DNA of 64,000 bases, taken from Sphaerisporangium sp. TRM90804. GTDB taxonomy: Bacteria > Actinomycetota > Actinomycetes > Streptosporangiales > Streptosporangiaceae. Location: assembly GCF_029846175.1 (NCBI RefSeq), contig NZ_JARWAC010000007.1, positions 496,001 to 560,000 of the forward strand, given 5' to 3'. Below the pieces are notes generated by a model that saw only the letters and a list, made by a program, of their open reading frames with translations, did not search any database and was not told the origin of the DNA. Numbering within the stretch: position 1 is the first letter of the stretch; each line of letters begins with the position of its first letter. The translations under genes and the position numbers were made by a program. Positions 27,013 to 57,482 of the stretch are shown here, piece after piece.

Positions 27013-27102
27013 GGAGGCTTCGCCTAGTCAGGTCTATGGCGCCGCACTGCTAATGCGGTTTGGGTCTACAGCCCATCCGGGGTTCAAATCCCCGAGCCTC
27101 CG
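27013..27102 (+). tRNA. tRNA-Ser (anticodon GCU), prophage integration site
   Basis: Acceptor arms GGAGGCT and AGCCTCC pair. The anticodon loop CTGCTAA gives GCU, and a long variable arm and the GGTTCAAATCC T-loop are present. GCA follows directly at 27102-27104. The integrase gene begins 104 bases downstream, the usual arrangement when a phage inserts in a tRNA 3' end. Confidence 0.96.
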
Positions 27103-27110
27103 CAGGAAAA
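27060..27110. other. Inferred attL region at the 3' end of tRNA-Ser
   Basis: Tyrosine-integrase phages usually use the T-arm and 3' end of the tRNA as the core site. The matching attR copy is not in this window, so the core cannot be delimited. Confidence 0.45.
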
Positions 27111-27144
27111 GGGCCCTTTCTCGTAAAGCGAGAAAGGGCCCTTT
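27108..27144. terminator. Bidirectional terminator between tRNA-Ser and integrase
   Basis: A perfect 16-base stem (AAAGGGCCCTTTCTCG) with a 5-base loop. Confidence 0.85.
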
Positions 27145-27206: not shown

Positions 27207-28565
27207 TCATGCGCCCTTCCGGCGCCGCGGGATCATCGCCACCGTCGCCTCCGCCGCCGCCTGGGCCAGCTGAGGCAGCACCGCGGCGTACACGTCGGCG
27301 GTGAACGCGTACCGCGAGTGGCCCAGCTCGGCGCTCACGACCTTCATATCCACGCCCGCCGCCAGCATGATCGTGGCCGCACAGTGCCGAAGGTCGTGGA
27401 ATCGAATAGGCGGCAGCCCAGCGGCGCGCGCGATCGCAGCGAACCGCTCTGAGACGTACTCCTCGCGTAGCGGCGATCCGTTCTCCTGCGTGAACAGCCG
27501 CCCCGAGTCGACCCACGTGGCACCGGCCGCTAGGCGCTCCTGGCGCTGGCGCAGGCGCCAAGCGCCGAGCAGGCCGACGTTCACCGCGTCGAGGGAGACC
27601 GTCCTCCAGGAGGACTCGGTCTTGAGGCCGGTGTCGTCCTCTTCTTCCGACTCCAGCAGGCTGATCGTGCCCTCTGCCAGCGCGGTGTTCTCCCATAACG
27701 CGCCGGCCGCCTCAGCTCGGCGCAGGCCTCGCGTCGCCACCAGGTGGTACAGCGGGTACAGCCGTTCCTGTGCCGCCTCGGCCTGGTCCAGGAACTTGCC
27801 GCACAACTCCGGTGTCCACACCATGACCTTGCCGGGGACACGTCCGGTCTGCCGCCACCGCTCGATCCGGGCCGCGGTCCACACCAGCGGCCGTACCTTG
27901 CGCACGGTCGGGAGTTCGACGTGCGGCGCGGGGTTGTGCACGATGCGCTTTTGACGCCATGCGGTGCCCAGTGCGCTGGACAGCACCCGGTGCACCCGAT
28001 GAATCCGCGCTGGCGACAACGGCGTCTTGCGCTTCAAGCCGGGCTTCTGCCCGTCGGGCCGCGGCCGCGTCCAGGGGGCGGGCGCCCGGGCGGCGAGTAG
28101 CCGGCGGAGCATCTCGCTCTGGTGTCCGCCCTCGGGCGCATTGTTGATCTGCGCCATGGCGGCGTACAGCTCGGCCAGGTGACTCTCACGTAAGGCGTCC
28201 AGGGGGACGTGCCCCAGGCCTGGCTTGCCGTACAGCCGCACCGCCTCGACATACGACTTGCGAGTGGAGTCCTTCAGACTCTTCTTGCCGGCCAGCCAGA
28301 TATCGAGCCAGCCGCCGAAGGTCAGGTTGCGCTCGATCACGATGCCCTTGGCGGTCTGCACCTGGAGGCCCGGAAGGGCTCGGTCCGCCTCGCCTTTCGT
28401 CCGGTACGGCCCCGCCCACGGGCGCCGGCGTTTGCCGTCGGTCCCAGGCGCTTCGTATCGGATCCACCATGCGCCATGATCGCGCTTGGTTAGCAACGGG
28501 CAGGACTGCCCGAGTTGCTTCCCGCCGGAATCGCGGCAGTTACACCGCTTGACAGGGCTTGGCAT
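27207..28565 (-). CDS. int: Phage tyrosine integrase
   Basis: 452 residues. A short Cys-containing N-terminus (CNC, then SCPLL) and an arm-binding domain come first, then a SAM-like core-binding domain (about 80-210) and the catalytic domain. Catalytic residues are visible: Arg282 in GLRRAE, His390 and Arg393 in HDLRH, His416 in LGHS, and the nucleophile Tyr426 in TADVY. It integrates into and excises from tRNA-Ser(GCU). The start has GGAGG five bases upstream. The gene before it ends nine bases away. Confidence 0.95.
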   Translation of the reverse strand: MPSPVKRCNCRDSGGKQLGQSCPLLTKRDHGAWWIRYEAPGTDGKRRRPWAGPYRTKGEADRALPGLQVQTAKGIVIERNLTFGGWLDIWLAGKKSLKDSTRKSYVEAVRLYGKPGLGHVPLDALRESHLAELYAAMAQINNAPEGGHQSEMLRRLLAARAPAPWTRPRPDGQKPGLKRKTPLSPARIHRVHRVLSSALGTAWRQKRIVHNPAPHVELPTVRKVRPLVWTAARIERWRQTGRVPGKVMVWTPELCGKFLDQAEAAQERLYPLYHLVATRGLRRAEAAGALWENTALAEGTISLLESEEEDDTGLKTESSWRTVSLDAVNVGLLGAWRLRQRQERLAAGATWVDSGRLFTQENGSPLREEYVSERFAAIARAAGLPPIRFHDLRHCAATIMLAAGVDMKVVSAELGHSRYAFTADVYAAVLPQLAQAAAEATVAMIPRRRKGA

Positions 28566-34148: not shown

Positions 34149-34577
34149 ATGATCATCAAGACGGAGATTCAGGACCAGGGGGCCACGGCGTTCGTCACCG
34201 TGTTCGCCGACCAGGACCCCATGCCCTGCGGCGTGCTGGTCATGAGCACCGCCGGGGCCGCCGAGCTGGTGGCACGCATTGCCGCCGGAGAGCCGCCCGA
34301 GGTTGAGGTCACGCCGAAGGTCGCCGCCCAGGTCCTCTACCACTACGGCCTGACCGGCGGCATGCAGGCCGGCTCGTTCATCACTGCGCTGATCACGGCG
34401 ATGACGAAGGCCGATCGCGACCACCTCCTGCGGCTGTCGACCGTTTACCCCGCCTACGCCGTCGCCGTCTACCTGGCCAGGGACACCGAGCACGGCAGGG
34501 GCTGGCTGCAGAACGTCGCCAAGCAGCGCCTGGTGGCCGACGCCAGCCCGGCCGACCCGGCCGAGGAGACGAGCTGA
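34149..34577 (+). CDS. Prophage early hypothetical protein
   Basis: 142 residues with a mixed alpha/beta pattern, not recognised. GGAG lies five bases before the ATG. It ends in a TGATG overlap with the coiled-coil gene. Confidence 0.7.
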   Translation: MIIKTEIQDQGATAFVTVFADQDPMPCGVLVMSTAGAAELVARIAAGEPPEVEVTPKVAAQVLYHYGLTGGMQAGSFITALITAMTKADRDHLLRLSTVYPAYAVAVYLARDTEHGRGWLQNVAKQRLVADASPADPAEETS

Positions 34578-34948
34578 TGACGGAATGGCCGCCCCGCACC
34601 AGGTCCGGCGCCGATGAGGAGCCGCTCCAGGTCCGCGTCGACCGGCTGGAGCGCGAGCTGGCATCGATGACCGCCCAGCGCGATCTCCTGCGCGAGCACC
34701 ACTCCTACGTCGACGACGGATCCCTGGACCACCTGCTTGCCCGCATCGGCGAGCTGCAGGCCGACAACAACCAGCTGCGCATCGCCGCCCAGACGGCAGA
34801 CCGCAGCGAACTGCTACGCGAACGGGACACTAACCGCCGGTTGGAGGCCGAGCTGGACCGCCTCCAGCGCGCCAACATGGCCGCCGACGTGGAGCTGCAG
34901 CGCCGGCCGTGGCGGCGAGGGAGCGGCCCTGCGGGTGCGACGTCGTGA
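34577..34948 (+). CDS. Coiled-coil prophage protein
   Basis: 123 residues; most of residues 18-110 is predicted coiled coil by heptad pattern (VDRLERELASMTAQRDLL, LRERDTNRRLEAELDRLQ). It may act as a scaffold or partner protein. The function is unknown. Confidence 0.7.
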   Translation: MTEWPPRTRSGADEEPLQVRVDRLERELASMTAQRDLLREHHSYVDDGSLDHLLARIGELQADNNQLRIAAQTADRSELLRERDTNRRLEAELDRLQRANMAADVELQRRPWRRGSGPAGATS

Positions 34949-35115
34949 AGCTCAGACAGGCGTGCCTGCTGCGCGGCCACTGGCCCCGCATCCACCGCGG
35001 CCGCCGCGCCACCATCTGCCTGCGCTGCTGGCCCTGCCGCCACTGCGGCGGCACCACCACGGCCTGCGTGGGCGAGTGCAGCGGCCGATTACGCGACCCG
35101 CCCCGGGAGGAGTGA
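34945..35115 (+). CDS. Small zinc-ribbon-like protein
   Basis: 56 residues from a GTG in a GTGA overlap. Paired cysteines and histidines (CLRCWPCRHCGG, CVGEC) indicate metal binding. Confidence 0.6.
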   Translation: MKLRQACLLRGHWPRIHRGRRATICLRCWPCRHCGGTTTACVGECSGRLRDPPREE

Positions 35116-35146
35116 CCGCGCACACGCGACACGGGACAGGAGAGGC

Positions 35147-36130
35147 ATGCAGGCGGGAGACCCGATCTACTGGACGTGGATTCGCATTCTGCGGCGCGTG
35201 GAGCTGGGCTTCGGTGAGGGCAAGGCGCGTGTCGGTTCGGACACGGTGCAGCACGTCGCCGCCATGGCCGTTACCTACGGCGACCCCGACGGCACCCACA
35301 TCCGCCCGAGCGTCGCCCGCCTCGCCCGTGTCTGCCGCAAGGACGAGAAGACCGTACGGCGGTGCCTAGGCCGCCTCCGGGAAGTGGGCCTGTTCATCCG
35401 CGTCTTCGAGGGCAGCTCAGCGGGCCGGTCCGGTAAGGCCGACGAATACCACCTGGCGATCCCGGACGATTTGCTGCAAAGGGTCGCGATGCTCGACCCG
35501 GACGAGAAGCACCTCGTTGTACCCGAAGGCGTTCAACCACCTCGTCTGAAGAAACCCCGGGCGAAGAAGACGGCCGCGCCCGCTGCAGAAACACCGGGTG
35601 GTGCACCCGCTGATGAACCGAAGCGGGTGGGCCGGCACCGGCTTCGCGAACCCGGATCACCGGGTGCAGCACCCGCTGATGTGCCTGTGGATAACCGGGT
35701 ATCACCGGGTGCTGCACCCGGTGATCAAGAGCTACTTGCCGGTAATCACCGGGTGCTGCTTCCCGGAACACCGGGTGCTGCTTCCAAGAACACCGGGTGC
35801 AGCACCCGCCCACCTACACAGGGACCTACACAGAGACCAACCCAGCACGCAGACATCTCTCCGTACGGCGCTGAGGAGGAAGGAAGCAGCGCCGCTCGCC
35901 GTGAGCCTCCGGCCAAGACTTCGACTCCGCGGTATCGCCAGCCGCCGCTCATGGTCGCCGTCCCCGACCTGCCGGACACGGCCGACTACGAACGCGCTCG
36001 CGACGCCCTCGCCGTGCTCCCCGATCTCGGCCATGCGCTCATCACCCAGGCCCGCCGCGACCTCGGGCCCACAGCCCCGCTCACCGCGCTGGTCGTCCAC
36101 GCCCACGCCCTGCTGCGGAGGTCCGCATGA
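35147..36130 (+). CDS. Phage replication initiator-like protein with iterons inside its gene
   Basis: 327 residues. The N-terminal about 100 residues form a winged-helix domain (HIRPSVARLARVCRKDEKTVRRCLGRLREVGLF) of the kind found in phage replication-O and plasmid Rep proteins. A low-complexity centre (about 145-235) is encoded by six copies of a palindromic repeat. The C-terminal about 60 residues are helical. The architecture, with a DNA-binding head and an origin embedded in the coding sequence, resembles lambda O, so this is the likely replication initiator. The start has GGAG four bases upstream. Confidence 0.75.
   Translation: MQAGDPIYWTWIRILRRVELGFGEGKARVGSDTVQHVAAMAVTYGDPDGTHIRPSVARLARVCRKDEKTVRRCLGRLREVGLFIRVFEGSSAGRSGKADEYHLAIPDDLLQRVAMLDPDEKHLVVPEGVQPPRLKKPRAKKTAAPAAETPGGAPADEPKRVGRHRLREPGSPGAAPADVPVDNRVSPGAAPGDQELLAGNHRVLLPGTPGAASKNTGCSTRPPTQGPTQRPTQHADISPYGAEEEGSSAARREPPAKTSTPRYRQPPLMVAVPDLPDTADYERARDALAVLPDLGHALITQARRDLGPTAPLTALVVHAHALLRRSA
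35592..35808. repeat. Iteron array, candidate prophage replication origin
   Basis: Six copies of CACCGGGTGCWGCACCCG-type palindromes start at 35592, 35658, 35703, 35747, 35769 and 35791; two are half-degenerate on the right arm. Start-to-start distances are 66, 45, 44, 22 and 22, close to multiples of 22. Copy 3 extends to a perfect 25-base palindrome (35701-35725). Copies fall in all three codon phases, so DNA sequence, not protein, is conserved. Confidence 0.85.
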
Positions 36131-36363
36131 TCTGGCCCTGGCTCGTCGCCCTGCTGCTCGTCTGGTCCACCATCGGCGCCGTCACCGCCCACGCCGCCTC
36201 CCGGTTGTTGTCCAGGTCGCTTCACCGCAGGGCGGGGTGGCTCGGAGCTGCGGTGGCCTGGGCCGAGTACCTGGCCGGCGTCATCGTCGCCGGTGCCCTG
36301 TGGCCGGTGGCCATGGCCATCTGGGCGCGCGGCGGGCGATTCGAGATCGAGTGGACCAGGTGA
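36127..36363 (+). CDS. Small membrane protein
   Basis: 78 residues with two hydrophobic segments (LVALLLVWSTIGAVTAHA and YLAGVIVAGALWPVAMAIWA). It overlaps the replication gene by ATGA. The function is unknown. Confidence 0.7.
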   Translation: MIWPWLVALLLVWSTIGAVTAHAASRLLSRSLHRRAGWLGAAVAWAEYLAGVIVAGALWPVAMAIWARGGRFEIEWTR

Positions 36364-36662
36364 CGCAGCCGCCGCTGTTCGACGTGCCTGAGCCACTCGA
36401 GCCCGAGCCGTTGGCCCGCCCTCGGCGCAGCAAACGGCGCCGCCCGGGGCCCATCTGCGACGACTGCCACCGGCGTGTGTGGGCCAGTGACTCGCTACGC
36501 GCCGGTCCCGACGGCCGCCGCCGCGGCGACAAGTGCCGGCGCAAGGCGAACCGCCGCTGGCGCCGCCTGCGCCTGCGCATGGGCCGGATCCGCCGGATGC
36601 GCCCCGGCCCCAACCAGCTCTCGATCCTCGACCCCAACCCGACCGACCAGGAGTCCCCGTGA
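36360..36662 (+). CDS. Small basic Cys-containing protein
   Basis: 100 residues, GTG start in a GTGA overlap; a GTG three codons earlier is possible. CDDCHRRV plus an Arg-rich tail (RRWRRLRLRMGRIRRMR) suggests nucleic-acid binding. Confidence 0.6.
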   Translation: MTQPPLFDVPEPLEPEPLARPRRSKRRRPGPICDDCHRRVWASDSLRAGPDGRRRGDKCRRKANRRWRRLRLRMGRIRRMRPGPNQLSILDPNPTDQESP

Positions 36663-37021
36663 TCACCAGCCCCGACCGCCGGCTCCGGCTATACGCCGTG
36701 CGCGCCACCGCCGTACTCGTCCCCGTGGCGGCCCTCATGCTCCTGCTGGTCCCCGGCCTCACCGGCGTGCTGCGCACCCTCGGCGTGCTCGCCGCCCTGC
36801 TGGTCGTCTTCCACGCCCTAGCTCGCACCGAGTCCCCACCGCCGCGACCCGGCCGGGAGGACTACCGCCGGGCCTTCCTGCACGCCTTCGCCGACCTGCG
36901 CGACGACCCCGACGACTTCGCCAGCCGCCTCGCCGACGTCGCCTACGGCGCCCAGCCCGCCCCGCACGAAGACCTGATCCGCACCCAGACGATCCGCCCC
37001 GTCCCCGGAGACCAGTGGTGA
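36659..37021 (+). CDS. Small membrane protein with cytoplasmic tail
   Basis: 120 residues with two membrane segments near the N-terminus (AVLVPVAALMLLLVPG, LGVLAALLVVFHAL) and a soluble C-terminal half. AGGAG precedes the GTG start. Confidence 0.65.
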   Translation: MITSPDRRLRLYAVRATAVLVPVAALMLLLVPGLTGVLRTLGVLAALLVVFHALARTESPPPRPGREDYRRAFLHAFADLRDDPDDFASRLADVAYGAQPAPHEDLIRTQTIRPVPGDQW

Positions 37022-37191
37022 CCCCGCCCGACCGCCGGCGCCTGCCCGTCTGGATCTGGGACCGCATCCTCACCAGCACCCTCCGGCCCTGCAGCCTGTG
37101 CGGCCACGCCCTGTGGACCGACAGCCCATGGACGATCTGCCGCCGCTGCGACCGCGCCCCCGGCGCACCCCTGCCCCCGAACTACCGCTGA
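37018..37191 (+). CDS. Small zinc-ribbon protein
   Basis: 57 residues. CSLCG and CRRCD form a CxxC...CxxC zinc ribbon. GTG start in a GTGA overlap. Confidence 0.65.
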   Translation: MTPPDRRRLPVWIWDRILTSTLRPCSLCGHALWTDSPWTICRRCDRAPGAPLPPNYR

Positions 37192-37226
37192 CCACCCGAA
37201 CGCCAGACCAGCCGAACGGAGACCCC

Positions 37227-37466
37227 GTGCCCAGCATGCGTGACCTCGTCACCCAGACCGGCCTGCCCGACAACACCCCCATCCTCCGAGTGCTGTCAGG
37301 ACTGACCTGGCACGTGCTCAACCCGCTGGCCGACGCCGAGATCGGCACCCTTGGAGCGCTCGCCCAGCGCACCGACGACGACCTGCTCGCGCTCCCCGGG
37401 TTCGGCCCGCGCCGCCTTGACGCCCTGCGTGCCGAGCTGCGGCGCATCGCCCCCGGCAAGGACTGA
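37227..37466 (+). CDS. Helix-hairpin-helix protein resembling the RNA polymerase alpha C-terminal domain
   Basis: 79 residues from the GTG at 37227 (GGAGA upstream). ALAQRTDDDLLALPGFGPRRLDALRAEL is an HhH unit of the alpha-CTD kind, which binds DNA non-specifically or contacts regulators. A role in redirecting host transcription is speculative. Confidence 0.7.
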   Translation: MPSMRDLVTQTGLPDNTPILRVLSGLTWHVLNPLADAEIGTLGALAQRTDDDLLALPGFGPRRLDALRAELRRIAPGKD

Positions 37467-38922: not shown

Positions 38923-39130
38923 ACGCGCCCCAATCCGTCCCCTGCCGCCACAGCCGATGCCGGCCCGGCCGTGCGCCTACGGCTGCACCCCCTCCATCGG
39001 GTGGCGGCACTACCGCTCGGTGGGGTGGGAGCGGGCCTGCCGATCCCACCGCGGCGGCCAAGCCCTGGAGCGTTCCGGGGACTACGTCGCCGACGTCGCC
39101 GACGTCGAGCGCGATGGGCGGCCCGCATGA
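38915..39130 (+). CDS. Small basic prophage protein
   Basis: 71 residues. CAYGCTP and a later CRSH give possible metal ligands. It overlaps both neighbours. Confidence 0.6.
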   Translation: MAKRAPIRPLPPQPMPARPCAYGCTPSIGWRHYRSVGWERACRSHRGGQALERSGDYVADVADVERDGRPA

Positions 39131-40224
39131 GCGACGCCTTCGAGGCGGCCGACGTGCCCGCCCTGCGCCGGGACACGCTCACGTGGCTGACCGACGGCCG
39201 CGGCTTCGGCTTCCATGCGCAGATGTCCCGCTCGGCAGGCAGCATGCTCGGCCGCCCCGACCTCGACGGCAACCCCGCGGTCATGCGCGCCTACGCCGAA
39301 CTGGTGTGCGAGCAGGAGACCCGCGCCCTGCGCGACGCCGAGCTGTACTACGTGACCGCCGAGATGACGCGCATCGTCCGCGCCGCCGCCGCCGACCTGC
39401 CCGCCTTCGTGCCCGCCGAAGGCGACTTCCCCAGCGCGGCCGGCCTCATCGTGTTCGAGTCGCCGCTGGCCGAGTACCGGCGCCCCGAGAACGACATCAG
39501 CGCCATGATCGTCGAGGGGCGTGTCGTCATGGACTTCCGTGACCAGCCCTACGAGGACACCCGGGTGGTGGCCGCCACCTGGAGCCCGTGCACCATGCGC
39601 GGAAGCTGGGAGCACGGCGGGGTGTGGATGGGTTTCTACACCAGCCGCGCCCTCATGCTCGAGCGCATCCTGGACGACCGTGTCCGCGACGACCTGCGGC
39701 CCACTCTGGGGCCCCTGGTCCCGGACAACGAGTGCGGCATCAAGTACGTGAAGCCGGCGGAGCGCGAGCACCAGGAGGAGCTGCTGCGAGCGCACGACCA
39801 GCCCGGCTACACCAGCCACTGGGCCAAGTACCTGATGGCCACGCTGCTGCTGATGCGCCAGCCGCTGACCTACCAGCGCACCGAGCCGATCCGGCGAGGC
39901 CTGCGCCGACAGTTGGAGCGTTCCGGACTCCCGGCCGGGCCCGTCCAGATCCTGGACGCCCGGCCCCGCCGCTACACCACCGTGCCGCGCGACCAGGAGG
40001 CCGAGGACCAGCCGGAGGAGGACACCAGCCGCAAGCTGTCGGTCCGTTTTCCGGTCCGCGGGTTCTGGCGCCAGCAGTGGTATCCCTCCCGCGGCCTCCA
40101 TAGGCCCAAGTGGATCGCCGAGCACTGGCGCGGCCCCGACGACGCCCCGATCGCCCATCCAGAGCGTGTCCGCGTGCTGCGCTCCCACCCCGCTCAGCCC
40201 AACCAGGAGACCGACCATGGCTAG
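39127..40224 (+). CDS. Large prophage early protein of unknown function
   Basis: 365 residues from the ATG in an ATGA overlap. It is well-structured alpha/beta sequence with no motif I recognise. A C-terminal segment (WYPSRGLHRPKWIAEHWRGP) is Trp-rich. The last 25 residues contain HPERVRVLR, also found at the end of the winged-helix protein two genes on. This is the largest unassigned early gene. Confidence 0.75.
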   Translation: MSDAFEAADVPALRRDTLTWLTDGRGFGFHAQMSRSAGSMLGRPDLDGNPAVMRAYAELVCEQETRALRDAELYYVTAEMTRIVRAAAADLPAFVPAEGDFPSAAGLIVFESPLAEYRRPENDISAMIVEGRVVMDFRDQPYEDTRVVAATWSPCTMRGSWEHGGVWMGFYTSRALMLERILDDRVRDDLRPTLGPLVPDNECGIKYVKPAEREHQEELLRAHDQPGYTSHWAKYLMATLLLMRQPLTYQRTEPIRRGLRRQLERSGLPAGPVQILDARPRRYTTVPRDQEAEDQPEEDTSRKLSVRFPVRGFWRQQWYPSRGLHRPKWIAEHWRGPDDAPIAHPERVRVLRSHPAQPNQETDHG

Positions 40225-40555
40225 CATCTGTCCGCGAACCGTGCGGGGCCGGTACGGCGACCGTGACTGGCCGTGCATCCGCGGCGCCGGCCACCAGGGC
40301 GACTGTGAACCGCAGATCGACGCTCGCCACTACGCCGTCCCGCTGGAGGACATGCCCGCCAGGGCGCTGGCGAGTGAGCTGCGGGCCGCCCTGGCCCGTT
40401 TGGAGGCGTCCGAGCGCCGGATGCAGGCGTACGCGGCCAGTGTGGGCGCGCGCCTGGCGCGGCTGATCACCCAGCTTCAGACCCTCACCTCGGACCAGCG
40501 CAAGACCGTCCCAGCGGCGGCGGTCCGCGAGGCGCTGGAGCAGGCTCGTGGGTGA
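40217..40555 (+). CDS. Prophage early hypothetical protein
   Basis: 112 residues. The N-terminus contains CPRT, WPCIRGAGHQGDC (a possible metal site), then a long helix. AGGAG precedes the ATG. Confidence 0.65.
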   Translation: MASICPRTVRGRYGDRDWPCIRGAGHQGDCEPQIDARHYAVPLEDMPARALASELRAALARLEASERRMQAYAASVGARLARLITQLQTLTSDQRKTVPAAAVREALEQARG

Positions 40556-41096
40556 GCTGTGGCCCGACGACGGGCTCATCCGCATCGACCGATTCTCCGA
40601 GCGCGCCTGGCAGGGAGAACGGCTTCTGCACCTGCCTCCCCGGCTCTACCGGCTGCTGGTGGTCCTGCACACCAATGCCGGCACGGCCATGAGCCACGAG
40701 CGCCTCCTGCGCGACGCGTGGGGCTCCTCATGGCCCGGGGGGAGAAATGCGCTCGCCAGCGAGGTCGCGCATCTGCGGCGCCATCTGGGCGACCAAGCCC
40801 AAGAGTCCCGGTACATCGTCACCGTGCGCGGCGTCGGCTACCGCCTTGCGGAGTCAGCCGTCCCGTCGACGCCCTCACCCGGCGTCCCGGTCCGACCGGT
40901 CCGGGTGGACGGCCAGATCGTGCGAGATGCCACCGGCGCGGTCGTCGCGGTCGCCAGGACGCTTCGGGCGGCGACGTGGCTGGCGGCATGCGTGGACGCC
41001 ACCGGCCCCGGCAGCGGCCCTGAGGACGCGCCGAGCGTCCACCCCGAGCGTGTCCGCGTCCTGCGGCCGCGCCCCACCGAGAGGACATCCTCATGA
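40548..41096 (+). CDS. Receiver-less OmpR/PhoB-type winged-helix protein with shared C-terminal module
   Basis: 182 residues. Residues about 10-100 form a complete Trans_reg_C domain ending in the diagnostic YIVTVRGVGYRL. There is no receiver domain. Residues about 118-150 (VRDATGAVVAVARTLRAATWLAAC) form a module also present in the next gene and in the second winged-helix gene at 41942. The tail carries HPERVRVLR. It is probably a phage transcription regulator; the module may bind a common ligand or mediate assembly. Confidence 0.82.
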   Translation: MGELWPDDGLIRIDRFSERAWQGERLLHLPPRLYRLLVVLHTNAGTAMSHERLLRDAWGSSWPGGRNALASEVAHLRRHLGDQAQESRYIVTVRGVGYRLAESAVPSTPSPGVPVRPVRVDGQIVRDATGAVVAVARTLRAATWLAACVDATGPGSGPEDAPSVHPERVRVLRPRPTERTSS

Positions 41097-41458: not shown

Positions 41459-41945
41459 GCGGGCCCTGGCCGAGGTGCTTGCGGGCACCGTCCCGCTGGC
41501 CATCCACGAACTGCGAGGGGCGACCTTCGAGGAGCGCCGCGCCCGGGCCGCTGGCGGTGTGGACCTGATCTGCACCCAGGCCGACGAGATGATGTACGGC
41601 AAGAAGCCGACCGGCGTGCTGACCGCGATCATCACCGGGGTCGCCGCGTGCGCGTACCAGCCCGGCGGCGTGACGATCCTGGGCCTGCACGCGTGCACCC
41701 ACCCGCACCCGGGGTGCCCGGCCTCGGCGACCAGGCCGCCGTGCTGCACCTGCGACCCCGAGCGATGCACCGCGCCCGCCGCCACCGGCCGCTGCCCGGC
41801 ACCCGAGGGGTGCGCGTGGTGCCGCAACGGATGCTCCACGGCCGACGGCCATTGCTGCGCCCCGACGAATCCGATGGGCCGCCTGGTCTTTCTGCCGGCG
41901 CCCGGCCTGCCGGGTTTCCCGACCAAGGAGACACCACGTTCATGA
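41445..41945 (+). CDS. Prophage protein with Cys-rich C-terminus
   Basis: 166 residues. The N-terminal 80 are helical (VDLICTQADEMMYGKKPTGV). The C-terminal half has about a dozen cysteines (CPASATRPPCCTC, CAWCRNGCS) and a His pair, so is probably metal-rich. The overlap with the following ATG (ATGA) supports the frame. Confidence 0.7.
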   Translation: MAITRRALAEVLAGTVPLAIHELRGATFEERRARAAGGVDLICTQADEMMYGKKPTGVLTAIITGVAACAYQPGGVTILGLHACTHPHPGCPASATRPPCCTCDPERCTAPAATGRCPAPEGCAWCRNGCSTADGHCCAPTNPMGRLVFLPAPGLPGFPTKETPRS

Positions 41946-42466
41946 TTCGCTTCCCCGATGACGCGCTGATCCGCCTCGACAGGCAGGCACAGCAGGCCTG
42001 GCACGGCCCCCACCAGCTGAACCTGTCCCCGACCGCCTACCGCCTGCTGCTTCACCTGGTCGACCATGCAGGAGCGGTCGCCACCTACGAGGAGCTGCTG
42101 CGCGCGGTATGGGGCGGCAAGCAGCTGCGTGACCTGCGGACCGTCCACACCCACGTCCGGATCCTGCGTGGGGCCCTGGGCGGGGTGGCCGCAGGGCACT
42201 ACATCACCACGGTGCGCGGCGTGGGCTACCGCCTGGAGACCAGCGCCGTACCCAGGCCCGGCGCCCCGGCGCCGGTCGTACGGCCGGATCGGCAGCCCCG
42301 GCTACCGCTGCGCGTCGTCCAACGTCAGATGCTCTACGACGCGAACGGCGAGCTGGTCGCGGTCGCAATGACCGCGCAGGTTGCGCACTGGCTGGCCGCC
42401 CGAATTGCGGAGCCGGATGCACCGGCGCAGATCACGACAGGGAGCACCGCACGCCATGGCCACTGA
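41942..42466 (+). CDS. Second receiver-less OmpR/PhoB-type winged-helix protein
   Basis: 174 residues, a paralogue of the protein at 40548: same opening (IRFPDDALIRLDR against ELWPDDGLIRIDR), the same YITTVRGVGYRL end of the winged helix, and the shared module as YDANGELVAVAMTAQVAHWLA. It starts in an ATGA overlap. The two may bind as a heterodimer or to related sites. Confidence 0.82.
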   Translation: MIRFPDDALIRLDRQAQQAWHGPHQLNLSPTAYRLLLHLVDHAGAVATYEELLRAVWGGKQLRDLRTVHTHVRILRGALGGVAAGHYITTVRGVGYRLETSAVPRPGAPAPVVRPDRQPRLPLRVVQRQMLYDANGELVAVAMTAQVAHWLAARIAEPDAPAQITTGSTARHGH

Positions 42467-48728: not shown

Positions 48729-49847
48729 ATGGGTGGGGACACAAGCAAGCGGATCCAACAGCTGATAGCAGAGAGTGATCTCAATCAAACCGAGTTCGCC
48801 GCTAGGGTCGGCCTCGACGCACCCAAGTTTTCGAAGTCGCTAAGTGGAACCCGGCGCTTCACCTCCTTGGACCTGGCCCGTATCGCCGAGGTAGGAGGGG
48901 TGACTGTCGACTGGCTGCTCGGCATCGACAAGCCTGCGCCCGCCCTGGCCGCCCGCAGTCGCGACGTGACGACCTCCGAGAAGCAGGCCATCGCTGAGGC
49001 GCAACGACTGGCACAATTCTGGTCAGACCTGGCCTTCCTCAACTACAGGCAACCGCGGGTAGACCTAGGATCGACTCCTCGCCGAAGTTCGTGCCTCGTT
49101 CAAGGCCGCGAACTCGCGGAGTCGGCTCTAGAGCACGCGGCGAAGCGCGGCGTCGAACCCTGGCGAATGCGAGATCTCGCTCCCCTGGTCGAGGATGTAT
49201 TCGGAATCGACGTTCGGATCATGCCTTTCGCCAACGGCTACGACGGTCTGAGCTGGGGCGACGACACCTGCAAACTCATGGTGGTTGCCACGTCCGAAGT
49301 CCCCGCACGCCAGCGGTTCAATATCGCTCATGAGCTTGGTCATCTCCTCGCTGGCGACGATCAAGGTCTTCACCTCGATGCCAACATGAGCGATGCGGAG
49401 CACAGGAAAGACCCTTCGGAAAAGCGGGCCAACGCATTCGCCACCGAGTTCCTGCTTCCGAGAAAAGTACTCCAGGAAAAGACGAAGAACATCGCATGGT
49501 CTGACCGGTCATTTGCCGAGCTAGCCTGTGATCTATGGGTCTCTCCCGTTAACCTCGCCTGGCGGTTGTATAACCTCAAACTGATCACCAGCGAGCAGTG
49601 CAGCAGGTTCCGCAGTATGCGAGGGATCGATACCGCCCTGCTCGCCGAGCGGATGGATCTTCACTGGCAGTGGATCGCCTCCGCAGGTCAACCCAGAGTC
49701 TCGGTGCCCCTGATACGGGCGGCCTTCCTGGCCTATCAGCGAGGTGACGCGACACTGCGGCCCCTCGCCAACATCATCGGCGTGGACACCGATTTCCTAC
49801 GACACGCCATAGACGGAGCACGAGAGGAATCTCCTGTTTCCTCATGA
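48729..49847 (+). CDS. Xre-family HTH fused to ImmA/IrrE-type zinc metalloprotease domain
   Basis: 372 residues. Residues 8-65 form the Xre HTH (LNQTEFAARVGLDAPKFSKSLSG). From about 120 an ImmA/IrrE (DUF955, COG2856) peptidase domain follows, with HELGH at 201-205 and the third ligand Glu231 before RANAFATEFLLP. Such proteins act as antitoxin-like repressors or cleave a phage repressor. The next gene overlaps by ATGA and encodes a PIN-like protein, so the pair looks like a toxin-antitoxin or defence unit. GC content is lower than in flanking phage genes. Confidence 0.85.
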   Translation: MGGDTSKRIQQLIAESDLNQTEFAARVGLDAPKFSKSLSGTRRFTSLDLARIAEVGGVTVDWLLGIDKPAPALAARSRDVTTSEKQAIAEAQRLAQFWSDLAFLNYRQPRVDLGSTPRRSSCLVQGRELAESALEHAAKRGVEPWRMRDLAPLVEDVFGIDVRIMPFANGYDGLSWGDDTCKLMVVATSEVPARQRFNIAHELGHLLAGDDQGLHLDANMSDAEHRKDPSEKRANAFATEFLLPRKVLQEKTKNIAWSDRSFAELACDLWVSPVNLAWRLYNLKLITSEQCSRFRSMRGIDTALLAERMDLHWQWIASAGQPRVSVPLIRAAFLAYQRGDATLRPLANIIGVDTDFLRHAIDGAREESPVSS

Positions 49848-51574: not shown

Positions 51575-52336
51575 ATGCCGTCCGCGCCGCCGCAGCGATG
51601 CTCGATCTGTCGCCAACTCCACACCACCGCGCGCCGCATCTGCCCAAACTGCGCGCGCGCCCGCCAGCGGGCCCGGCCTACCGCCGCTCGGCGGGGCCTG
51701 GGATATGACCATCAGAAGGCGGCGGCTCAGGTGCTGGCGGACGCGACCGTGTGCGCGGTCTGCCTCAAGCCGCCGACGGCGGCCGACCCGCTCACCGCCG
51801 GCCACATACTCGACCGGCAGCTCGGCGGCACCAACGACCCGAGCAACTACCAGCCCGAGCACCAGTCGTGCAACTTCGCCAAGCGCGCGGCTGACGCGCA
51901 CGTCGTGCTGGTCACCGGCCCGCCGTGCGCGGGCAAGACCACCTACGCGCAGCACTTCGCCCTCGAGGGCGACTTGGTGCTGGACCTGGACACCATCGCC
52001 CGGGATCTTGGCAGCACCAGGTACTGGCACCACGACCCGGCGACGCTGGCCCGCGCCGATGCGGTGATGCGGCGCCAGGTGCTGAAGGTGGCGGCCACCC
52101 GGACGGGGCGAGTGTGGATCATCCGCTGTGTGCCTAACGGCCGGACGCGTACGGGGCTGGCGCGGATGGTGCGGGCGGACAAGGTGGTGGTGCTGCTGCC
52201 CAGGGGCAGCACCCTGGTGGCAAGGGCGAGGCGCAGGCCGGACGTGATGGCCACGGTGACGGCGATCAATGAGTGGCAGTCGGCCTACACCGAGGGCGCG
52301 CTGGACACGGTGATCACGAGCTGGCGCCGCCGTTGA
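51575..52336 (+). CDS. HNH endonuclease fused to a P-loop kinase-like domain
   Basis: 253 residues. Residues 9-27 are a zinc knuckle (CSIC...CPNC). Residues 60-100 are an HNH nuclease: CAVC, AGHILD (His77), then EHQSCN (His96, Cys99). Residues 110-250 form a P-loop domain with Walker A GPPCAGKT (115-122), DLDTIARDLG and a helical lid, resembling AAA_33/polynucleotide or zeta-type kinases. Phage HNH proteins beside terminases help cut packaging sites; the added kinase-like domain is unusual and may process DNA ends or nucleotides. Confidence 0.83.
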   Translation: MPSAPPQRCSICRQLHTTARRICPNCARARQRARPTAARRGLGYDHQKAAAQVLADATVCAVCLKPPTAADPLTAGHILDRQLGGTNDPSNYQPEHQSCNFAKRAADAHVVLVTGPPCAGKTTYAQHFALEGDLVLDLDTIARDLGSTRYWHHDPATLARADAVMRRQVLKVAATRTGRVWIIRCVPNGRTRTGLARMVRADKVVVLLPRGSTLVARARRRPDVMATVTAINEWQSAYTEGALDTVITSWRRR

Positions 52337-53021: not shown

Positions 53022-54827
53022 GTGTCCCGGGTCGACGGCAAGAGCCCGGCGCCGGCGGGGACCAGGCGCCGCGGCCGCGGGTACGTGCCGAGCGCCGCAG
53101 AGCTCAAGCGGCTCAAGCTCTCGCCCGAGGTCGCGTGGTATCTGCAGGACCGTGGCATCCCGCTGCCGGACTGCCCGCCGACGATCAAGACTCCCGAGGC
53201 CGGGGAGCTGCTCAAGACGGCGCGCTTCGATCCCGAGCGCGTCGACAAGGTCTTGGCCGCTTTCCGCCAGCTGCGCCACACCAAGGGTCGCTGGGCGGGC
53301 CAGCCGCTCAATCCCGACCCGTGGCAGGTCGCGTACGTCATCGCCCCGGTCTTTGGGTGGGTGAAGAAGAACCGGCGCGGCCAGTGGGTTCGCGTCGTCC
53401 GCAGTCTCTACGTCGATGTGCCGAGGAAGAACGGCAAGTCGACGTTGTGCGGCGGGCTCGGGCTGTACCTGACGGCGGCCGACGGCGAGGGCGGTGCGGA
53501 GGTCGTCGCCGCGGCGACGACCAAGGAGCAGGCCAACTACGTCTTCGGCCCGATCAAGGCGCTGTGTGACCACGCGCCCGCGGTGAAGCCGTACGTCAAG
53601 TCCCTCGCCCAGAAGATCATTCACAAGGCGACCGGTTCGACGTTCTGCCCGGTCGCCAGCGTCGCCGAGGCGTTGCACGGCGGCAACATCCACGGCGGGA
53701 TCATCGACGAGCTGCACGTTCACAAGGACGGGGCGCTCGTCGAGGCGATCGAGACGGGCACCGGCAGCCGTGACCAGCCGCTGATCGTCATCATCACCAC
53801 GGCGGACGACGGCCGCACGAACACGATCTACGCCAGGAAGCGCAAGCGGGTCGAGGAGCTCGCGCGCCGGGTGATCCGGCACGCCAGCACCTACGGCGTG
53901 GTGTGGGGCGCGGACGAGAAGGACGACCCCTTCGCGGTCGCGACCTGGAAGAAGGCCAACCCGGGGTTCGGGATCTCACCCACGCACGAGTACCTGGAGG
54001 AGAAGGCCGCCGAGGCCCGCCAGGACCCGGCCGTCCTGGCCTCGTTCCTGCGGCTGCACCTGGGGATCCGCACCAAGCAGACCACCCGGTACATCACGCT
54101 GGCCGACTGGGACGGCGCGGCGGCCATCGTGGAGGAGGCGGCGCTGGCTGGCCGCGCGTGCCACGGCGGCCTGGACCTGAGCAACGTGGAGGACGTCACC
54201 GCGCTGTGCTGGCTGTTCCCGGACCGGGAGGCCGGCACCTTCGACGCGGTCTGGCGGTTCTGGCTGCCGGAAGCGCGGCTGAAGGACCTGAACAAGCGCA
54301 CCGCGGAGAATGCCGAGGTGTGGGTCCGCGAGGGGTGGCTGACCCTGACCGCGGGGAACGTCATCGACCTGGAAGCGGTCGAGGCGCAGATCGACAAGGA
54401 CGCCCAGGTGTTCGCCGTCCAGACCGTGGGCTACGACCGGTGGGGAGCCACCGACGTGGTGCGCCGGCTGGGTGAGAAGGGCATGACGTGCGTGCCCATC
54501 TCGCAGGGCGCCGCGTCGTTGAACGACCCGCTGAAGAACGTGCTGCGCACGTTGAAGGCGGGTCTGTTCCGGCAGGGCGGGCATCCGGTCATGCGGTGGA
54601 TGATCGACAACTTGGCGACCGTCGCGACCCACGACGGCGCCTTGGTCAAGCCGGACAGGGCCAATTCCGGCGACAAGATCGACGGTGTGAGCGCGCTGGT
54701 CAACGCCATGAAGGAATGCATGGACGCCCAGCAGGCCGAACAGCAGGCACCGCCCGCGGCCGCCGACTCGGCGGCTCCCTGGGACGACCGCGACCTGTGG
54801 CGCCCGACCGGTCGCCTGAACATCTGA
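53022..54827 (+). CDS. Terminase large subunit
   Basis: 601 residues. The N-terminal ATPase has Walker A VPRKNGKST (133-141) and Walker B GGIIDELHVH (225-234). The C-terminal nuclease domain carries Asp-containing GLDLSNVEDVT and later acidic motifs (YDRWGATD, DKIDGVSALVNAM). It pumps and cuts concatemeric phage DNA into the prohead. Length and layout match HK97-like Terminase_1 proteins. GTG start. Confidence 0.95.
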   Translation: MSRVDGKSPAPAGTRRRGRGYVPSAAELKRLKLSPEVAWYLQDRGIPLPDCPPTIKTPEAGELLKTARFDPERVDKVLAAFRQLRHTKGRWAGQPLNPDPWQVAYVIAPVFGWVKKNRRGQWVRVVRSLYVDVPRKNGKSTLCGGLGLYLTAADGEGGAEVVAAATTKEQANYVFGPIKALCDHAPAVKPYVKSLAQKIIHKATGSTFCPVASVAEALHGGNIHGGIIDELHVHKDGALVEAIETGTGSRDQPLIVIITTADDGRTNTIYARKRKRVEELARRVIRHASTYGVVWGADEKDDPFAVATWKKANPGFGISPTHEYLEEKAAEARQDPAVLASFLRLHLGIRTKQTTRYITLADWDGAAAIVEEAALAGRACHGGLDLSNVEDVTALCWLFPDREAGTFDAVWRFWLPEARLKDLNKRTAENAEVWVREGWLTLTAGNVIDLEAVEAQIDKDAQVFAVQTVGYDRWGATDVVRRLGEKGMTCVPISQGAASLNDPLKNVLRTLKAGLFRQGGHPVMRWMIDNLATVATHDGALVKPDRANSGDKIDGVSALVNAMKECMDAQQAEQQAPPAAADSAAPWDDRDLWRPTGRLNI

Positions 54828-54837
54828 GGGAGGCCCG

Positions 54838-55089
54838 ATGATCGTCAGTTTCCGGCTGCCCAGCATCTCGCTGGGCGCGGTCAGCAACATGGTCGGCCTG
54901 CTCGGCCTGGTCGCGGTCGCCGTCGCGGTGGGCGGCCTGCTCGGATCCTGGTGGTGGACGTGCCTTTCGGGCGGCGTCTTCGCGGTCGGCCTGGCCGTGC
55001 TGGCCGGGATGAGCGCCCAGGCGCAGGCCCAGGCCGAGGCCGCCGGGCAGGCGCCTGCCGTGCTGCGGCCGGCGGCTGAGGCGTCGTGA
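54838..55089 (+). CDS. Small membrane protein between terminase and portal
   Basis: 83 residues with two membrane segments (VGLLGLVAVAVAVGGLLG and GGVFAVGLAVLAGM) and an Ala/Gln tail. GGGAGG precedes the ATG, and the end overlaps the portal gene (GTGA). The function is unknown. Confidence 0.7.
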   Translation: MIVSFRLPSISLGAVSNMVGLLGLVAVAVAVGGLLGSWWWTCLSGGVFAVGLAVLAGMSAQAQAQAEAAGQAPAVLRPAAEAS

Positions 55090-56558
55090 GGTCGATCTTC
55101 GCGCCGCCGCGCCGCCCCCAGACCCGGGCGGCGGAGGCCTCGCCCGCACAGATCGCCGCCACCGGCGCCTCTGGGTACGGCGCCGGTGACCCGGTCGACA
55201 ACGAGCCGGGGTGGCGGCCGCTGGGGTCGGCGGGCCGGCGCGAGGTGCCGTACTGGACGCATGAGCGGGCCCGCACGTTTTCGGTGGCCGGCTACCGCAG
55301 CAATCCGATGGCCCGGGCGATCATCGACACCTACACCAGCTTCTGTGTCGGTGACAGCGGTGTGAGTTACCAGGTCACCAACGCGCAGGTGCGGGCCGTC
55401 GTGGACGAGTTCTGGGCCGACCCGCGCAATAACCTGTCGGGCATCCAGGAGTTGTTCCTCCGCGACCAGCTGATCATGGGCGAGACGCTGCTGGAGCTCA
55501 TGGAGGGCCAGGGCTCGGGCGTGGTGCGGTTCTCGCCGATCGACACCACCGGCGTGACGAACGTGTCGCTGGTCGGCGGGAACCCGCTGTGGCCGCACCA
55601 GGTCATCTTGGGCCAGGCCGCGGGCGATGAGCGGCGGGTGACGGTCGCCGCGGTGGACGACGGCACCGGCCTGCGGACCGGCGGCGCGATGTGGTGGACC
55701 CCGTTCAAGACGTTGATCACCGACAAGCGGTCCATGCCGTTCATGACGCCGATCCTGGACTGGTTGGACGCCTACGACACCGTGCTGTCCAACCTGATCG
55801 ACCGCACGGCGCTGGCCCGCTACCTGGTGTGGACGGTCAAGGTGGCCGGCGGCAAGGAACAGGTCGACCAGTTCGTGAGGGACCGCGGCGGGCTGCACGT
55901 GCCGCGCTCAGGGTCGGTCGAGGTCCACAACGAGTCGGTGGAGTGGTCGGCGAAGACGGCCGAGACCGGCGCGTATGAGGACACCGCGGCGAACCGGTCC
56001 GTGCTGACCATGATCGCCGGTGGCTCCGGTCTGGCCAAGACCTGGTTGGCCGAGCCGGAGGACGCCAACCGCGCGACGTCGCTGACCATGGCCGAGCCGG
56101 TACGGCGGCGCGTGCAGGGCGTGCAGCGGCAGTGGCTGGGCTACCAGACCGAGCTGAGCCGCTTCGCCGTGGACCGCGCCGTGGCCGCCGCCCGCCTGCC
56201 CAGGATGGTCGAGGCGACCGACCCCAAGACCGGCGAGACGTATGAGATCCCCGCCGCGATGGCGGTCACCGTGACCGGGCCGGAAGTGGCCGCGGCCGAC
56301 GCCTCGATCGGCGCCCAGGTCCTGCTCAACCTGTCCACCGGTCTGGAGCACCTGGTCCAGAACGGCGTCCTCACCCGGGACGCGGCGGCCGTGGCCGCCC
56401 GCAAGGCCTGGGAGGACTACATGGGCATCCCGTACTCCTCTGACCTGGGCAAGCCCGATGCCGATCCTGACGACGTCGCGACGGCTGTCGACGACGCCAA
56501 GTCCAACAAGCTCGGCCGCCTGGCGGTCGTGGGAGGAGCTGGCCGAAGTGACACGTGA
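55086..56558 (+). CDS. Phage portal protein
   Basis: 490 residues. Position after the terminase and an alpha/beta wing-stem layout (NPMARAIIDTYTSFCVGDSGV, LRDQLIMGETLLEL, MTPILDWLDAYDTVLSNLIDRTALARYLVW) fit a portal. The portal forms the dodecameric DNA channel at one head vertex. The C-terminal 60 residues are acidic and probably face the capsid lumen. Confidence 0.88.
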   Translation: MRSIFAPPRRPQTRAAEASPAQIAATGASGYGAGDPVDNEPGWRPLGSAGRREVPYWTHERARTFSVAGYRSNPMARAIIDTYTSFCVGDSGVSYQVTNAQVRAVVDEFWADPRNNLSGIQELFLRDQLIMGETLLELMEGQGSGVVRFSPIDTTGVTNVSLVGGNPLWPHQVILGQAAGDERRVTVAAVDDGTGLRTGGAMWWTPFKTLITDKRSMPFMTPILDWLDAYDTVLSNLIDRTALARYLVWTVKVAGGKEQVDQFVRDRGGLHVPRSGSVEVHNESVEWSAKTAETGAYEDTAANRSVLTMIAGGSGLAKTWLAEPEDANRATSLTMAEPVRRRVQGVQRQWLGYQTELSRFAVDRAVAAARLPRMVEATDPKTGETYEIPAAMAVTVTGPEVAAADASIGAQVLLNLSTGLEHLVQNGVLTRDAAAVAARKAWEDYMGIPYSSDLGKPDADPDDVATAVDDAKSNKLGRLAVVGGAGRSDT

Positions 56559-56982
56559 TCAGGCTGCCCGCGCGATCGGCGTGGCCGTCACCGAGATCCA
56601 GAGCGCGGAGCACGCCGCTCACGGCGTGGCCGTGGTCATGTCCAACGGGGCGCGCCGGCTGATCACCGATGACGGCGTCTTCGCGACCGACGATCACCCC
56701 GGCAACGAGCACCTGCGGCGCTGGTACGCGCCCCTGGAAGGCGCGGAGCGCGACCTCGAGGTCGACCCCGATGACGGCCGCGCGGGGGAGATCGGCGCCG
56801 CCGGCGACGGCGGCCGCAGGCAGGGCGGCGGCGAGCTGGTGGTCTCGGACGGCTCTGCCGACCAGGCCATGAAGCCCGCCGGCGACGACCCGGAACGGGC
56901 CCAGGCCGAGCCCGAGCAGGAGCCGGCCAAGCCCATCGCGCGCAAGAGCCGAACCGAGCGGCTGGGGAGGGTGAACCGGTGA
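56548..56982 (+). CDS. Small acidic late protein between portal and capsid genes
   Basis: 144 residues from the GTG at 56548 (GGAGGAG upstream); the longer frame to 56458 reads the portal gene out of phase. Residues 1-70 are structured; the rest is Gly/Asp/Glu-rich and probably disordered. A head morphogenesis accessory role is possible. It overlaps both neighbours. Confidence 0.65.
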   Translation: MTRDQAARAIGVAVTEIQSAEHAAHGVAVVMSNGARRLITDDGVFATDDHPGNEHLRRWYAPLEGAERDLEVDPDDGRAGEIGAAGDGGRRQGGGELVVSDGSADQAMKPAGDDPERAQAEPEQEPAKPIARKSRTERLGRVNR

Positions 56983-57482
56983 CCTACACCACACACGGAC
57001 ACTGGATCGGGGACGGCGAACCGACCGAGCCGCGGCCCGCTGCGGTGGCCAGGTGCGGAGGGCCGGGCCTGTGCGGAGTCTGCAACCAGGAGGCGTGCAC
57101 CGCCGGGTTCCGCGGCCAAGACGCCCCAGTCCCGGCGGCCGGAGCCGCCGGCGTCACGTGTCCCCAGTGCGGCCACACGTTCGAAGTGGGCACGGGCGCC
57201 CGCCCGCAGCGTGTGGGGGAAGGTCACCCGGTGACCTACACCAGGCACGGACACTGGATCGGCCCAGGCGAGCCCACCGAGCCCTGGCCCGGGGCGCCGG
57301 CCAGGTGCGGAGGGCCGGGCCTGTGCCCGGAGTGCAACCAGGAGGCGTGCACGGTCGGCTTCCGCGGCGAGGATGCCTCGCTGGCCGCGACCGGCGAGGC
57401 CGCGGCCCGCTGCCCCGCGTGCGGGCACACCTTCGACGCAAGCGCCGGCGACCAGCCGCGGCGGGTGACCGAGACGGCGACG
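56979..57482 (+). repeat. 252-bp in-frame tandem duplication at the start of the capsid gene
   Basis: The second copy begins at 57231. GGACACTGGATCGG, AGGTGCGGAGGGCCGGGCCT and AACCAGGAGGCGTGCAC are shared, and the ribosome site and GTGACCTACACCA start context are duplicated too. Confidence 0.9.

Follow-up and report, generated by a model that had tools for sequence, protein, structure and literature searches.

A candidate theta-type replication origin with an embedded DnaA box inside an O-like initiator gene of a Sphaerisporangium prophage

A replication gene of Sphaerisporangium sp. TRM90804 carries six short repeats in the middle of its coding sequence, and the question is whether the repeats and the gene together make up a replication origin, as in phage lambda, or whether the repeats serve the gene in some other way. 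We have analysed this locus within a stretch of 64,000 nucleotides (the window hereafter) and in homologous loci. The element is a prophage, since it carries terminase, portal and capsid genes. No convincing attR copy of the tRNA-Ser 3' end was found up to the contig end, so the right end of the prophage was probably not assembled. To our knowledge, few origins of actinobacterial temperate phages have been described. The features are as follows.

27207–28565, minus strand: tyrosine integrase gene, adjoining tRNA-Ser(gct) at 27013–27103
35147–36130, plus strand: O-like initiator gene, 327 aa, with winged helix, disordered linker and C-terminal helical domain (PHROG, AlphaFold2)
35159–35551, plus strand: coding part of the winged-helix DNA-binding domain, about residues 5–135 (AlphaFold2 helices and strands)
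35567–35968, plus strand: coding part of the predicted disordered linker, residues 141–274, which holds the array (low pLDDT)
35590–35614, no strand: iteron 1, inverted half-site pair, 10 + 11 of 12 (half-site scoring, as for iterons 2–5)
35656–35680, no strand: iteron 2, inverted half-site pair, 12 + 11 of 12
35686–35694, minus strand: perfect DnaA-box consensus TTATCCACA (TGTGGATAA on the plus strand), in frame within PVDN
35701–35725, no strand: iteron 3, inverted half-site pair, 12 + 12 of 12
35745–35756, plus strand: iteron 4, direct half-site
35767–35778, plus strand: iteron 5, direct half-site, 22 bp from iteron 4
35789–35813, plus strand: iteron 6, direct half-site, 22 bp from iteron 5, with a weak right arm (8/12) that abuts the A/C-rich tract
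35813–35848, plus strand: three A/C-rich 12-mers, CCTACACAGGGA, CCTACACAGAGA and CCAACCCAGCAC, directly after the last iteron; candidate unwinding element
35978–36124, plus strand: coding part of the C-terminal three-helix domain, residues 278–326, candidate replisome-recruiting domain (AlphaFold2)
53022–59843, plus strand: terminase large subunit, portal and capsid genes

The original prediction had described six palindromic repeats starting at 35592, 35658, 35703, 35747, 35769 and 35791. On re-scanning, all six starts were correct, and so were the spacings (66, 45, 44, 22 and 22) and the codon phases (1,1,1,0,1,2); the phase changes because each 22-bp step necessarily shifts the reading frame. 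The repeats are indeed six, but full palindromes are three only. Scored with a 12-bp half-site, the array consists of three inverted pairs, starting at 35590, 35656 and 35701, and then three half-sites of the same orientation at exact 22-bp steps, starting at 35745, 35767 and 35789. The repeats are far above chance expectation. When the 64 kb were scanned with the half-site ATCACCGGGTGC, all eight sites with at least 11 of 12 identities fell inside the array. With up to three mismatches allowed, the repeat pattern is found 11 times in the window, where 0.83 occurrences would be expected; 10 of the 11 fall inside the array, and none of 100 shuffles reached 11. At no more than one mismatch, all six matches of the whole 8.3-Mb genome lie inside the array, while with up to three mismatches the genome-wide count shows no excess (237 vs 266 for a reversed-pattern control). 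No RNA family matched at gathering scores between 34000 and 37500. One pattern scan gave two terminator-like inverted repeats on the minus strand of the array region, against 0.5 expected.

The earlier claim that the repeat is kept as DNA and not as a peptide is supported by comparison with the Sphaerisporangium album copy of the gene (L010). Identity at third codon positions falls from 0.81 in the array to 0.51 in the helix-turn-helix (HTH) part (Fisher p 4e-6) and to 0.62 in the C-terminal part (p 0.005), which argues that the array is constrained at the DNA level. Within the array, the third position is as conserved as the first and second (0.78 and 0.81), and the amino-acid identity is similar throughout (0.68, 0.73 and 0.67 for the array, the HTH and the C-terminal part). 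A stretch around CGTACGGCGCTGAGG further along (window 35850–35880) is also conserved, and reads as PYGAE-EG or PYGAEVEG in coding members; by eye, similar DNA seems to be kept in L046 past the stop of the HTH frame.

Two further parts of the layout, the DnaA box and the A/C-rich 12-mers, had been missed in the original prediction. The sequence TTATCCACA, which we take to be the E. coli DnaA-box consensus, occurs in a single perfect copy in the 64-kb window, and this copy lies between iterons 2 and 3. Behind the last iteron, the tract is low in G and rich in A and C, without being AT-rich. It contains the lowest-stability 50-bp window of the gene (35811–35860), which is only moderately unstable, as 1220 of 63,950 such windows in the 64 kb are equally or less stable. 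Its A/C content is more extreme: the value of the 55-bp stretch 35809–35863 is reached by 184 of 63,945 windows on this strand and by 60 on the other.

The encoded protein can be compared with known initiators in several ways. In the AlphaFold2 model, block means of pLDDT are 71–92 for residues 11–120 of the winged helix and 84–94 from residue 281 onward in the C-terminal domain, and values are below 50 at residues 141–157, 159–221 and 223–274 of the linker. It is because of this linker that the whole model scores low (mean pLDDT 64.6, pTM 0.39). From the half-site positions and the model, the iterons sit between the coding parts of the DNA-binding and the C-terminal domain. We have taken RKDEKTVRRCLGRL as the recognition helix. 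The window protein gives weak replication-initiation matches in PHROG (best E 8.4e-5; the O-like phrog_678 at 4e-4) and weak Pfam matches to HTH_29 and HTH_36, both under the cut-offs. Among 14 family members, phrog_270 is matched by 11 and the O-like phrog_391 by 10 (best E 2.5e-10). With the relative L052 as query, 266 phage records were retrieved, including "DNA replication protein O" of enterobacterial phages at E 1e-7 to 1e-8. The model has 44 matches at E no more than 1e-3 in a library of predicted viral structures; among them is a putative phage replication protein O (E 7.5e-5), with low TM-scores (0.24, 0.35). The nearest solved structures include 4pql, 5kbj and 4pt7, at E 0.011 at best and with other winged-helix regulators close behind. 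Their titles name a DNA-binding protein N-terminal domain, a Rep-DNA complex and an initiator, and we take them to be RepA_N proteins. These comparisons suggest that the winged-helix protein is a distant relative of the phage O-type initiators. The C-terminal domain can be aligned with five relatives; Pfam gave nothing for it at E up to 1, and its matches to PDB sequences, at E 0.26 or worse, are taken as chance. For the full-length protein, no direct phage relative appeared at 1e-5, a single plasmid match was found (Micromonospora CP108834), and the single-protein query of viral contigs gave no relatives.

We have searched for relatives with an alignment of the HTH domain, and matches at E up to 1e-8 were found in 28 of 341 family genomes and 17 of 394 genomes drawn from the class, where the two sets overlap and the source genome is counted in both. 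For each locus, an identical procedure with 25 shuffles was applied to three stretches, namely upstream of the HTH, behind it (post-HTH) and downstream; 54 or 55 of 56 loci were usable. Behind the HTH, 33 of 54 loci have a repeat family that beats all 25 shuffles, compared with 4 of 55 upstream and 3 of 55 downstream; some of the 54 loci are weak homologs, with E as high as about 1e-8 and, for a few, 1e-5, and the loci are partly non-independent (close pairs L035/L036 and L041/L042). At least two same-strand spacings of 21–23 bp are seen behind the HTH in 22 loci, against none upstream and none downstream. De novo repeat search showed an array in this place in most of the clear homologs, with a repeat sequence that differs by clade (ATCACCGGGTGC, ACACCGGTCAC, ATCACCGGACA, AACCACCGGCA, ATCAGGTGTCA, TTTCTACGGACA, TCTGGGGATCAC and others). 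What recurs in relatives is the position of the array behind the HTH; the repeat itself is clade-specific and sometimes lies outside the gene. The reading frame runs through the array in the window, L010, L034, L037, L038, L041, L042 and L048. In L027 and L061 the HTH gene stops within the first repeat pair, and in L043–L045 and L047 the ORF stops ahead of the array. The order of parts recurs in actinobacterial homologs, whether the array is coding or the gene ends at or before it.

On the other hand, not every homolog has such an array. In the post-HTH test, repeats fail to beat the shuffles in L040, L051, L081–L083 and others. A first repeat scan had used regions of 1.4–1.7 kb and 40 shuffles; L041 and L042 were not above all shuffles there and are above them in the shorter post-HTH stretch. 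L040, L051, L053, L064–L066, L073 and others beat the shuffles in neither scan and are thus without statistical evidence of an array. For the weak homologs L067, L070, L071, L075 and L033, the first-scan signal came from GC-rich stretches and is absent behind the HTH, and these candidates were rejected. Among named phages, gp53 of Mycobacterium phage phiGD34-2 (L078), annotated as a helix-turn-helix protein only, has CGACCGGACACC repeats, two TGTGGACAA boxes and CCCACCTA, and Mycolicibacterium phage WillG (L079) has CTCACGGGACAT repeats. No such array is detectable in Microbacterium phage ValentiniPuff (L080), and the short repeats of Rhodococcus phage Tonitrus, E. coli phage PhiR49_2 and Arthrobacter phage Cupello (L081–L083) do not beat shuffles.

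The DnaA box recurs with the array. In all 56 loci, 19 perfect boxes are found in the post-HTH stretches of 16 loci (24,439 bp), and none in 167,467 bp of flanks; we rely on this count rather than on an earlier one over 39 of the 56 loci, from which 17 judged array-less had been left out. The coding members of alignment A2 translate the box as PVDN, which is nearly invariant; L040 is the exception. L027 and L061 have one copy inside the array in the opposite orientation and a second copy further along, while the TTTCTACGGACA clade (L029, L039, L059) has no perfect box. For the tract after the last iteron, tested in 34 of the 56 loci, A+C is in the top 5% of the locus in 17 and G in the lowest 5% in 21; several misses are read as misplaced automatic array ends (L029, L042, L081).

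Since the ideas of the DnaA box and the A/C-rich tract came from the loci first tested, the sole independent test is a held-out set, L086–L093, fetched after the expectations had been fixed. It comprises eight loci, six of them distinct (L086 = L090, L087 = L092). All eight beat all 40 shuffles, and in all eight the last two spacings are 21–22 bp. A perfect DnaA box lies in the region in seven, while L089 has none there and one in the flank. By eye, CCACC followed by A/C-rich repeats is present in 8/8. In seven, the frame ends 6–27 bp past the HTH match and does not translate the array; in L089 it continues. In the Nocardia loci of this set, the gene ends at the array or ahead of it, and the array is kept all the same.

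Does the protein track the sequence of its array? For 28 of the 56 loci, the distance between motifs correlates with the distance between recognition helices (r 0.52 with hand-read and 0.39 with automatic half-sites; p at most 2e-4), and also with the distance over the remainder of the domain (r 0.45 and 0.38). In a thinned subset of 17 non-redundant loci, hand-read half-sites retain the correlation for the helix (r 0.37, p 0.0012) and not for the rest of the domain (p 0.25), and automatic half-sites give a trend (helix r 0.18, p 0.067; rest p 0.21). Among all 14-column blocks, the highest r for automatic motifs, 0.27, belongs to the block that covers the second half of this helix and the residues after it. 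These correlations lend moderate support to the argument that the winged-helix protein reads its own array.

Based on the above comparisons, the array and the gene most probably form the prophage's theta-type replication origin inside an O-like initiator gene; we put the probability at a little over 80%. The layout is best read as RK2-like, with a DnaA box, iterons and 12-mers, placed within a lambda-O-like gene. In such an origin, winged-helix dimers would bind the inverted pairs and then align on one DNA face along the 22-bp direct sites, host DnaA would bind the box and assist, and the complex would melt the adjoining low-G, A/C-rich repeats. The C-terminal domain may help to recruit the host helicase or primase. 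The linker would be mainly translated origin DNA, and its peptide sequence would therefore matter little.

Helix-turn-helix proteins often autoregulate, and the array could be an operator through which the protein controls its own or a neighbour's transcription, with replication starting elsewhere. The two terminator-like inverted repeats would suit this explanation. We consider it unlikely, as the array follows the part that codes for the HTH, in the gene or behind it, and is not at the promoter of the gene; no sigma-70-like promoter was found in 34500–36800, and the recurrently placed DnaA boxes and A/C-rich repeats suit an origin better. Somewhat less likely still, the array may be the relic of a once-active origin in a decayed or assembly-truncated prophage. 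The attR copy that was not found up to the contig end would fit such a truncation, whereas the initiator frame is open, and the iterons and the DnaA box are kept with codon-silent constraint relative to L010.

A partition or incompatibility site, that is, centromere-like iterons bound by a partner protein, is improbable. Some extrachromosomal mycobacteriophage prophages do carry parS near repA, according to parts of PMC7157519; here, an integrase lies beside a tRNA gene, and neither ParA nor ParB was recognised among the 33 ORFs scanned. Besides, DnaA boxes are unexpected at a centromere, and the repeat sequence tracks the HTH protein. We give even less credit to a low-complexity coding repeat, in which a PGAAP-like linker would leave the DNA repeat as a by-product of GC-rich codons. 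The genome is high in GC and two of the palindromes encode the identical peptide SPGAAP in one frame; yet the three 22-bp-spaced sites fall in three phases with different peptides, the third positions of the array are conserved like the first and second, unlike in the flanking domains, and the untranslated arrays of L027, L061 and the Nocardia loci contradict it.

Theta origins that lie within O-like initiator genes are already known as an arrangement, and the part of lambda O that binds DNA is N-terminal. The analogy with lambda, in which origin and initiator form one unit, had been drawn in the original prediction, and it is borne out comparatively by the O-like relatives and by the arrays in 33 of 54 loci and 8 of 8 held-out loci. 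In both systems, iterons inside the initiator gene are followed by a tract proposed to melt. Lambda has four 18-bp iterons and a 38-bp AT-rich tract at bases 39034–39160 within O (excerpts of PMC3349717), and two DnaA-box-like sites downstream of pO (excerpts of PMC3985674). The differences are that here a perfect DnaA box lies among the iterons, iterons 4–6 are direct half-sites 22 bp apart, the tract consists of A/C-rich 12-mers, and the ORFs scanned held no recognisable P-like loader. The box and the 12-mers bring the layout nearer to an RK2-type oriV than that of lambda is, the array lies outside the gene in several homologs, and some, such as L080, have none. In RK2 oriV, DnaA boxes and iterons are followed by an unwinding element of 13-mers (excerpts of PMC4980987). 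A DnaA box and iterons are present here too, and the tandem repeats, a candidate unwinding element, are A/C-rich 12-mers instead of 13-mers; our array is inside or directly behind an O-like gene. RK2-type Reps have two winged-helix domains, whereas our model has a single one, joined by a disordered linker to a domain of three helices.

A comparable domain order is found in RepA_N proteins such as pSK41 Rep and in the pPR9 chimera with a pfam13730 N-terminus, where a winged-helix N-terminal domain and a C-terminal domain are joined by a linker encoded by the origin, with the Rep boxes in the middle of rep (excerpts of PMC5703833). The difference is that our protein, from a high-GC actinomycete phage and with a DnaA box in its gene, shows weak fold similarity (E 0.011 at best); it has no match to the RepA_N domain PF06970 at E up to 1. 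In repABC replicons, the origin also lies mid-gene, in repC, but repC of p42d is described as having neither iterons nor DnaA boxes in the excerpts of PMC3155836. For extrachromosomal mycobacterial prophages, excerpts of a 2020 study go no further than a likely origin within repA or upstream of it, and in some a parS with five direct repeats lies just downstream of repA (PMC7157519). Other literature considered in part covers AICEs (PMC3218068), pWTY27 (PMC3583192) and Stx-phage replication units with HTH_36 proteins (PMC8951638). An AICE related to RepAM or pMEA300 was also considered for our element and dropped: terminase, portal and capsid genes are present, the initiator has no match to the RepAM domain (DUF3631, PF12307) at E up to 1, and no FtsK match occurs among the ORFs scanned. 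In the open-access literature, as far as titles and abstract openings go and with most subscription journals outside the scope, no description of this array family was found. What is new here is the embedded DnaA box, the polarity from inverted pairs through 22-bp direct half-sites to A/C-rich 12-mers, its occurrence in coding or non-coding form, and the wide diversification of the repeat.

Several other features of the prophage are worth recording. The 33 ORFs scanned, a part of those in the element that does not extend to the small ones directly behind the initiator gene (36127–36662), gave no recognisable gene for a helicase or a loader; E. coli phage PhiR49_2 has DnaC and a helicase beside O. 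A small gene near the initiator, 37098–37466, encodes a domain like the RNA polymerase alpha C-terminus (PF03118, E 1.6e-5, above the cut-off). At 40548–41096, an OmpR-type winged helix (PF00486) begins at residue 27 of 182, so that a receiver domain cannot fit ahead of it; by eye, the ORF at 41648–42466 resembles this protein. The product of 48729–49847 is a fusion of an HTH with an M78 (IrrE-like) peptidase, a likely prophage regulator. A single ORF at 51575–52336 has matches to HNH nuclease and AAA-type NTPase and a PHROG match to terminase small subunit. The 954-aa capsid protein of 56979–59843, with an N-terminal zinc-ribbon match and with protease and major-head PHROG matches, is apparently a fused protease-capsid. 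Finally, an inverted repeat lies at 27108–27144, directly after tRNA-Ser(gct) and before the integrase gene.

Overall, a whole origin layout is legible here from the sequence and predicts held-out loci. It would join two textbook designs, namely the lambda origin in the initiator gene and the oriV made of DnaA box, iterons and 13-mers, and the origin-like array moves in and out of coding sequence, always behind the DNA-binding domain. We further suggest, at about even odds, that a movable cassette is common to actinobacterial phages: behind a winged-helix domain, within about 100 bases, comes the array that belongs to it, often together with a DnaA box and A/C-rich repeats for melting, and this DNA may be translated or not. 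Domain and array would diversify in step and give rise to many specificities, each distinct from the others, and related prophages could then be copied in the same cell without interfering with each other. How initiator and origin co-evolve becomes directly testable on a set of natural domain-array pairs. If this suggestion is true, the shared cassette family would be a natural recognition code for this helix-turn-helix class.
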